Assembly: GCA_014695295.1 (NCBI GenBank)
Contig: JACJNY010000044.1
Coordinates: 1-64,000, forward strand
Origin: Microcoleus sp. FACHB-61
GTDB taxonomy: Bacteria; Cyanobacteriota; Cyanobacteriia; Cyanobacteriales; Microcoleaceae
DNA length: 64,000 nt
Reading direction: 5' to 3'
Shown here: in pieces, positions 547 through 1,134 of the stretch
How positions within the stretch are numbered: position 1 is the first letter of the stretch
How the letters are laid out: each line of letters starts with the position of its first letter
Position numbers and translations under genes: made by a program
The notes under the pieces: model-generated
Databases searched by the model: none
Seen by the model: only the letters and a program-made list of their open reading frames with translations
What the model was told of the DNA's origin: nothing

Positions 547-652
547 CTCATGATACAGGTAAAGTGTTTGCATCTACATTAGAGAAAAACATATCTGAAA
601 ATAAAAACAAAAAATCTGAAGCTGGAAAATTCCAACTTCAGACTTTTACTAA

Positions 653-1026
653 CTCCCCGGGTAGGATTTGAACCTACGACCAATCGGTTACACTTATCCC
701 AACGTTTCCGAAGGGGGCGGACTATTTCATCATCCCTACAAATCATGTTTGTGATCTGTCGTCGGATGTCGGGCGCTATGAGATTTATTGGTTAGGCTCC
801 TCATCTCTAGTCTCTGCACCTTTCCGGCTACTTGCGATCGTAACCGCTGCCTTTCGCCAGACTTGGCTCAAGATTGCCGCCACCCGAAGTGCTGCGGTTT
901 CCTTGAATTCACCCGATTTTTCAGTATCCGTTACCGGATAGAGCTGCTATGTCACTAGGGCTTTTGGTTGATGCCAAAGGCTTGCATTCATTACAGCCGA
1001 CCGCTCTGCCACTGAGCTACCGAGGA
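653..1026 (-). tRNA. tRNA-Asn(GUU) interrupted by a group I intron
   Basis: The 5' exon (1026 down to 993, 34 nt) and 3' exon (690 down to 653, 38 nt) join into a 72-nt cloverleaf. The acceptor stem is TCCTCGG with CCGGGGA plus discriminator G. The D arm is GCTC/GAGC. The anticodon stem GTCGG/CCGAT closes the loop CUGUUAA, giving anticodon GUU. The T arm is GTAGG-TTCAAAT-CCTAC. CCA is not encoded. The split falls in the anticodon between U35 and U36, and the junction is unique because neither intron end supplies the second U. No second tRNA-Asn copy is visible in the window. Confidence 0.93.
691..992 (-). other. Group I self-splicing intron inside tRNA-Asn
   Basis: The 302-nt insert shows the group I core in order on the minus strand: P-like GAATTCAAGGAAACC (910-896), Q-like AATCTTGAGCCAAG (875-862), R GGTGCAGAGACT (820-809) and S ATGAAATAGTCC (730-719). 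R and S pair GACTA with TAGTC to form P7. The 5' exon end GGCUGU can pair with the internal guide GCAAGCC, with one bulged A and a U-G wobble at the splice site. The intron ends in G. The Q, R and S elements resemble those of the cyanobacterial tRNA-Leu(UAA) intron (class IC3). There is no homing-endonuclease frame. Confidence 0.9.
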
Positions 1027-1134
1027 TTGGGGGTTTTTGTTACCCACATTTACTAACAATAGCTGAACTTACTCGATTTGGCAAGGCCTTTGATAAACTT
1101 TTTTTTTTGCCATACCGCAACAGGGTTTCAGCAG

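Follow-up and report, generated by a model that had tools for sequence, protein, structure and literature searches.

A group I intron in the anticodon of a cyanobacterial tRNA-Asn(GUU) gene and introns at the same site in other bacteria

The interrupted tRNA-Asn gene and the fold of its intron

The window, by which we mean the whole 64,000-nucleotide stretch analysed, begins at base 1 of contig C39 in the genome of Microcoleus sp. FACHB-61 (6.62 Mb in 81 contigs). It contains, on the reverse strand at 653-1026, a tRNA-Asn(GUU) gene in two exons with a 302-nt insert within the anticodon (Table 1). Run with introns allowed, ARAGORN calls a tRNA-Asn(gtt) with a 302-nt insert in place, which bears out the coordinates, strand, insert length and tRNA identity proposed in a first-pass annotation made from the sequence; in default mode, without introns, the program calls zero tRNAs in the window. 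The rejoined exons give a full cloverleaf with the anticodon GUU, and the intron must be excised before this tRNA-Asn RNA can read asparagine codons. The group I identity of the insert, also proposed in the first pass, is upheld by covariance search: the Rfam model RF00028 matches at 966-698 with 77 bits (gathering cut-off 50, E 8.1e-18 for the window), in an alignment that covers the whole 253-position model. The P3-P8 core with its P7 pseudoknot is present, and the last intron base is G. No homing endonuclease ORF is found in the window intron, the 302 nt of which are filled by ribozyme helices. A hairpin resembling the terminator-like one 3' of the gene is also present in the flanks of relatives.

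Table 1. Features of the interrupted tRNA-Asn gene, in coordinates of the window
Feature	Position	Strand	Basis
5' exon of tRNA-Asn(GUU), ending ...GGCUGU (U35)	993..1026	-	ARAGORN with introns; empty-site alleles
Group I intron, 302 nt, first bases AAUGAAUGC, ending ...AUAAGUG (final base G)	691..992	-	RF00028, 77 bits; covariation; empty sites
3' exon of tRNA-Asn(GUU), U36 to discriminator G73; no encoded CCA	653..690	-	ARAGORN with introns
Terminator-like hairpin and T run, 3' of the tRNA	610..647	-	1 found vs shuffle mean 0.8
Promoter-like hexamers, 5' of the tRNA	1056..1084	-	1 found vs shuffle mean 0.7
Internal guide GCAGC, P1 partner of exon GCUGU 997-993, U.G at the splice site	943..947	-	Conservation in 21 copies
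P1 extension, 991-989 with 951-949	949..991	-	Covarying
P2 hairpin, 941-935 with 930-924	924..941	-	Pairing, covariation set
P3, 916-910 with 775-769; encloses P4, P5, P6 and P6a	769..916	-	Pairing, covariation set
P4, 906-901 with 873-868; P5, 897-894 with 880-877	inside P3	-	Pairing, covariation set
P7 pseudoknot strands, 812-808 and 724-720 (guanosine-site helix)	720..812	-	Pairs 5/5, invariant in 21 copies
P7.1-like extra helix, 807-803 with 784-780, loop CCAAUAA	780..807	-	Covarying
P8, 768-764 with 735-731	731..768	-	Pairing, covariation set
P9 hairpin	698..715	-	Pairing, covariation set

The fold was assessed on 21 cyanobacterial copies of the intron (the ORF-bearing copy L062 and near-duplicates were left out), using a 57-pair structure drawn on one of the 21 sequences counted. 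Across these copies 97.8% of cells are paired and both-sided changes occur at 15 pairs; 0 of 500 shuffles match the paired percentage, the both-side counts or the covariation score, while the number of pair types is no higher than in the shuffles. When the partners are slid, pairing falls to 30-41%. The helices P3, P6, P7 and P8 are invariant and, showing no variation among the 21 copies, add no covariation support. In P1, four of the five pairs are invariant in 21/21 copies and the fifth is kept in 19/21, with the U.G wobble at the 5' splice site present in all 21, and the middle pair of the P1 extension appears as U-A (10 copies), G-C (9) or A-U (2). The covariation measured against shuffles and the conserved P1 together rule out a chance fold. 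A different P1 guide, GCA at intron position +8, was dropped, being not kept in all copies; the invariant GCAGC fits. The P7.1-like helix follows the 5' strand of P7 and precedes the 3' strand of P3. Helices P7.1/P7.2 are a mark of subgroup IA, and the tRNA-Leu introns (tRNA-Leu/Arg lineage) belong to subgroup IC3; the window intron has a single P7.1-like helix, which may or may not correspond to those of subgroup IA.

As read from the sequence, no cut other than that between U35 and U36 lets these exons form the seven-base loop CUGUUAA. In five intronless genomes of the genus the locus holds an uninterrupted gene with the precise empty site CTGT^TAACCG (5/5), in shared flanks (upstream pieces 84-91% identical across 504-1520 bases). 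These precise empty sites fix the cut independently of folding, and the splice point given in the first pass is confirmed by them. An assembly artefact is ruled out by the precise empty alleles and by the recurrence of the intron in 10 further genus members and in other families.

On this anatomy, conserved fold, exact boundaries and empty alleles, the two splicing steps can be modelled by analogy with the known mechanism of the family. In the folded transcript, the exon sequence GCUGU would pair with the guide GCAGC to form P1, and an external guanosine bound at P7 would attack after U35. The 3'-OH of U35 would then attack after the last intron G, joining U35 to U36 and making the GUU anticodon. 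Judged from sequence, the insert is with a probability of about 0.9 a working, ORF-less, self-splicing group I intron in the anticodon of a chromosomal tRNA-Asn(GUU) gene, and it is very probably functional.

Occurrence at the same tRNA-Asn site in cyanobacteria and other bacteria

In a DNA search of 291 genomes of the order, 33 match the intron and 32 are counted (the weak match of ~50 bases in G275 is left out). Thirty loci were fetched from these 32 carriers, the matches in G074 and G108 falling outside that set, and tRNA-Asn exon sequence stands beside the intron in all 30. Within the window's genus the intron is carried by 11 of the 16 genomes sampled (own included). The pattern of the chromosomal-type intact tRNA-Asn is matched by 0/11 of these carriers and once by each of the five intronless genomes. 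A pattern for the broken tRNA-Asn matches at least seven of 386 genomes of the phylum, six in the own genus or family, a count which is a floor since the pattern misses the known carrier G008. In another class of the phylum, a 252-base insert lies at the U35|U36 site of tRNA-Asn (L406, G329:C222). At the cyanobacterial locus L188, RF00028 gives no match above cut-off. No match to the intron was found in plasmids, and the phages searched gave only a 68-base match to the group I core, in two records of Vibrio phage 11895-B1. The phage segment (NC_020843.1:100337-100405) is 84% like the window intron and lies under an annotation of terminase large subunit.

Beyond the phylum, a pattern search for tRNA-Asn genes broken after CUGU, covering contigs from 84,980 species, found at least 117 such loci; those listed comprise, by record titles, 76 archaeal, 6 cyanobacterial and 35 other bacterial loci, a list not usable for frequencies. 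Tychonema sp. LEGE 06208 and Microcoleus sp. LEGE 07076 are among the strains in which such an insert is seen. Among the listed non-cyanobacterial bacterial loci, 34 of the 35 were scanned with Rfam (L103 left out), and RF00028 scores above cut-off in 30/34, on the same strand and within ~600 bases of the broken 5' exon (18/20 plus 12/17, the 17 including two repeats and one cyanobacterial locus). The scan gives no match above cut-off at L101, L129, L163 and L186. A script rejoins 26 of the 34 listed loci into a tRNA-Asn with a seven-base anticodon loop and five pairs in both the anticodon stem and the T stem; in these the acceptor stem is paired 7/7 in 25/25 readable cases, and the last intron base is G in 26/26. 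The remaining eight (L098, L101, L116, L160, L163, L165, L178 and L180) are not rejoined by the script, and L165 rejoins in ARAGORN. By title, the 34 loci belong to Nitrospirota, 'Deltaproteobacteria' (some of them Myxococcota), Omnitrophota, Patescibacteria lineages, Planctomycetota, Chloroflexota, Bipolaricaulota, Cloacimonadota and others, labels which may err since the sources are mostly metagenome bins. In the genus of Nitrospira genome G587 the pattern finds its site in 6/32 genomes, the introns of which measure 250-260 or 556-559 nt. In Nitrospira sp. CG24E (L096, G587:C14:193334-194967), two interrupted 5' halves of tRNA-Asn lie 1.6 kb apart, the second with no 3' exon within 900 bases.

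Several of these introns carry reading frames. The 898-nt intron of G032 (L062) encodes a 215-aa LAGLIDADG_2 protein (PF03161, E 1.4e-25), the ORF being located in the P7.1 region (equivalent to window 780..807), and the intron at L188 has the same length of 898 nt. The longer introns L089 and L134 (Nitrospira), L105 (a 'Deltaproteobacteria' bin) and L186 (a Cloacimonadota bin) contain ORFs near the 5' splice site that are alike by eye; Pfam HNH falls below cut-off in the ORFs of L089, L105 and L134 (E 0.0018-0.0084), and the L186 ORF has no Pfam HNH match. The window intron is one of many that share a single tRNA-Asn site across several bacterial phyla, and some of these introns carry homing endonuclease genes.

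The second tRNA-Asn, the need for splicing and the origin of the intron

The first pass had asked whether the interrupted gene is the only tRNA-Asn of its genome, and the genome search answers with one more copy, a tRNA-Asn(GUU) that is intact but divergent, has an encoded CCA and lies in a tRNA array on contig C3. This array (G000:C3:80005-83365, L063) comprises 29 closely packed tRNA calls in ~3.4 kb. Because of this second tRNA-Asn(GUU), splicing need not be essential in the own genome, where it may be dispensable. Each of the 11 genus carriers has one or more additional tRNA-Asn-like matches, which fall into two sequence types (the array position was checked in the own genome only). For some other carriers, gene content makes it very probable that asparagine codons cannot be read without splicing. 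No other match to the tRNA-Asn pattern is found in five carriers outside the genus (G008, G047, G055, G167 and G180), and among the 46 tRNA hits of G055, a genome rated 100% complete (150 contigs), there is no intact Asn(gtt); likewise 16 of 18 non-cyanobacterial carriers, for which genome completeness is not given, have no other match to the pattern. One odd tRNA of G055, with the anticodon AUU (Asn), lies near other tRNA hits (G055:C147, L395).

The intact array tRNA-Asn of the own genome and the further matches in all genus carriers would also fit a dying or silent intron-bearing copy, with the array tRNA-Asn doing the work. Against such decay, the exons and the intron core are strongly conserved across the 21 copies, the five carriers outside the genus have no second match to fall back on, and 4/5 intronless genomes of the genus retain the chromosomal gene beside a second tRNA-Asn match; we therefore hold it to be quite improbable that the gene is silent. 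Excision by a protein endonuclease, the route taken by archaeal tRNA introns, can draw on the fact that the same pattern matches interrupted archaeal tRNA genes, which make up 76 of the 117 loci listed, but here the group I model covers the insert from one end to the other, P1, P3-P9 and the terminal G are all present, and this explanation can practically be set aside in favour of a working group I intron.

Where such an intron came from was addressed by comparison with other group I introns of the order, in which RF00028 finds at least one match in 96 of 120 genomes. Typed by exon motif, 94 matches are divided between tRNA-Leu(UAA) (56, one row of which, L271, is mistyped), tRNA-Arg(CCU) (14), tRNA-Asn (1) and other or unresolved hosts (23), in a set which mostly omits matches already known as tRNA-Asn. 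The own genome has a second group I intron, in tRNA-Arg(CCU) (G000:C47:32034-32281, L002 1501-1748; RF00028, 59.8 bits). A careful tree was built from 75 of 140 rows, leaving out 20 from other hosts, 37 Leu, 1 Arg and 7 long-branch Asn rows. In this tree, the bootstrap of which was not settled, the cyanobacterial Asn introns form one clade (96/99); it adjoins (91/92) a set of nine Asn introns from Nitrospirota, Chloroflexota and Bipolaricaulota, and a branch supported at 98/90 parts all Asn rows from Leu and Arg. When the tree is rooted at its midpoint, three Asn introns from Omnitrophota (L098, L116 and L157) join the Leu and Arg side (92/94), so that a single common Asn intron family is not proven. 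In a quick tree of all 140 rows, the cyanobacterial Asn introns are again one clade (89), within an open group (86) that also takes in other-host introns and four Asn introns from elsewhere; the other Asn introns need 5 changes, and this quick tree is the less clear of the two.

The first-pass annotation saw in the intron a likeness to that of tRNA-Leu and suggested a move between anticodon loops; a move from tRNA-Leu is not supported. In the AU test a clade of cyanobacterial Asn and Leu introns is rejected (p 0.003), the core of the window intron is closer to Asn introns of other phyla (up to 65% identity among the careful-tree rows) than to those of Arg (58%) or Leu (57% at most), and the intron has an extra helix that is absent from the Leu introns shown. 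The CCAATAA element of this helix, a pattern written after the sequences had been seen, is present in 20/22 cyanobacterial and 9/30 other Asn introns and in 3/20 introns of other hosts, but in 0/54 Leu (one of them mistyped) and 0/14 Arg introns. In addition, the tRNA-Leu(UAA) of the own genome (L071, G000:C40; L063) is intronless, though 55/94 typed introns of the order occupy that gene. An origin by transfer from cyanobacterial tRNA-Leu(UAA) or tRNA-Arg(CCU) to tRNA-Asn retains in its favour the group I core common to all, a forced clade of cyanobacterial Asn, Leu and Arg introns that is not rejected (p 0.27), and the three Omnitrophota introns, by which the Asn introns are not all far from those of Leu and Arg; on balance we regard it as unlikely.

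We are instead inclined, with some reserve, to see a set of group I introns, spread across the bacteria, that is dedicated to U35|U36 of tRNA-Asn(GUU). The set would cross phyla (Cyanobacteriota, Nitrospirota, Myxococcota, Omnitrophota, Chloroflexota, Planctomycetota, Bipolaricaulota and Patescibacteria lineages), would be equipped with LAGLIDADG or HNH-like endonucleases and would be largely distinct from the tRNA-Leu/Arg introns. In many hosts it would make every asparagine codon ribozyme-dependent, and it would have been overlooked by standard tRNA annotation. The three Omnitrophota rows make this reading slightly less likely.

Relation to known tRNA introns

A 2025 preprint reportedly describes tRNA introns in Patescibacteria (by its title), possibly at the same or a similar site, and it may overlap part of the present findings. 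The literature search, with preprints and most subscription papers outside its scope, found no paper on a bacterial tRNA-Asn intron, in line with the first pass, which knew of no documented case. No bacterial tRNA-Asn group I intron is named in the available parts of seven related papers (PMC5733544, PMC3984707, PMC8450103, PMC4033280, PMC12641178, PMC8155191 and PMC10226581). A 2017 survey of 61 cyanobacterial genomes lists, in the part available, Leu and fMet as earlier cases and claims short inserts in Arg, Gly and Lys, with Asn not named there (PMC5733544). The tRNAscan-SE 2.0 paper, in its available part, explains some missing fMet and Ile2 genes by group I introns, and states that the program is not designed for detecting them (PMC8450103).

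The tRNA-Asn intron adds a host tRNA and a site of insertion to those given for bacterial tRNA introns in the literature found, and gives the testable claim that the reading of AAU/AAC depends on self-splicing in some bacteria. Such introns would account for 'missing' tRNA-Asn genes, since default ARAGORN finds no tRNA here and tRNAscan-SE 2.0 was not made for such introns. The interest lies less in this gene than in the same-site tRNA-Asn introns across phyla: one site common to distant phyla, with two kinds of endonuclease among relatives, makes a case for studying the spread of tRNA introns.

Among known systems, the introns of tRNA-fMet and tRNA-Ile(CAU) are also group I introns of the anticodon loop according to the available parts of two papers (PMC5733544, PMC8450103), with a different host tRNA and a place outside our tree. 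The tRNA-Arg(CCU) intron shares with the window intron a group I core in the anticodon loop, but is cut after U36, as read from the exons, and groups with the Leu introns (98/90); in some Arg introns an insert of other sequence stands where the window intron has its P7.1-like helix. The tRNA-Leu intron likewise has a group I core in the anticodon loop and a cut after U. Its cut, as read from the exons, is U34|A35, in contrast to U35|U36 in the window intron, and the five tRNA-Leu introns shown have no helix between the P7 5' and P3 3' strands, where the window intron has one.
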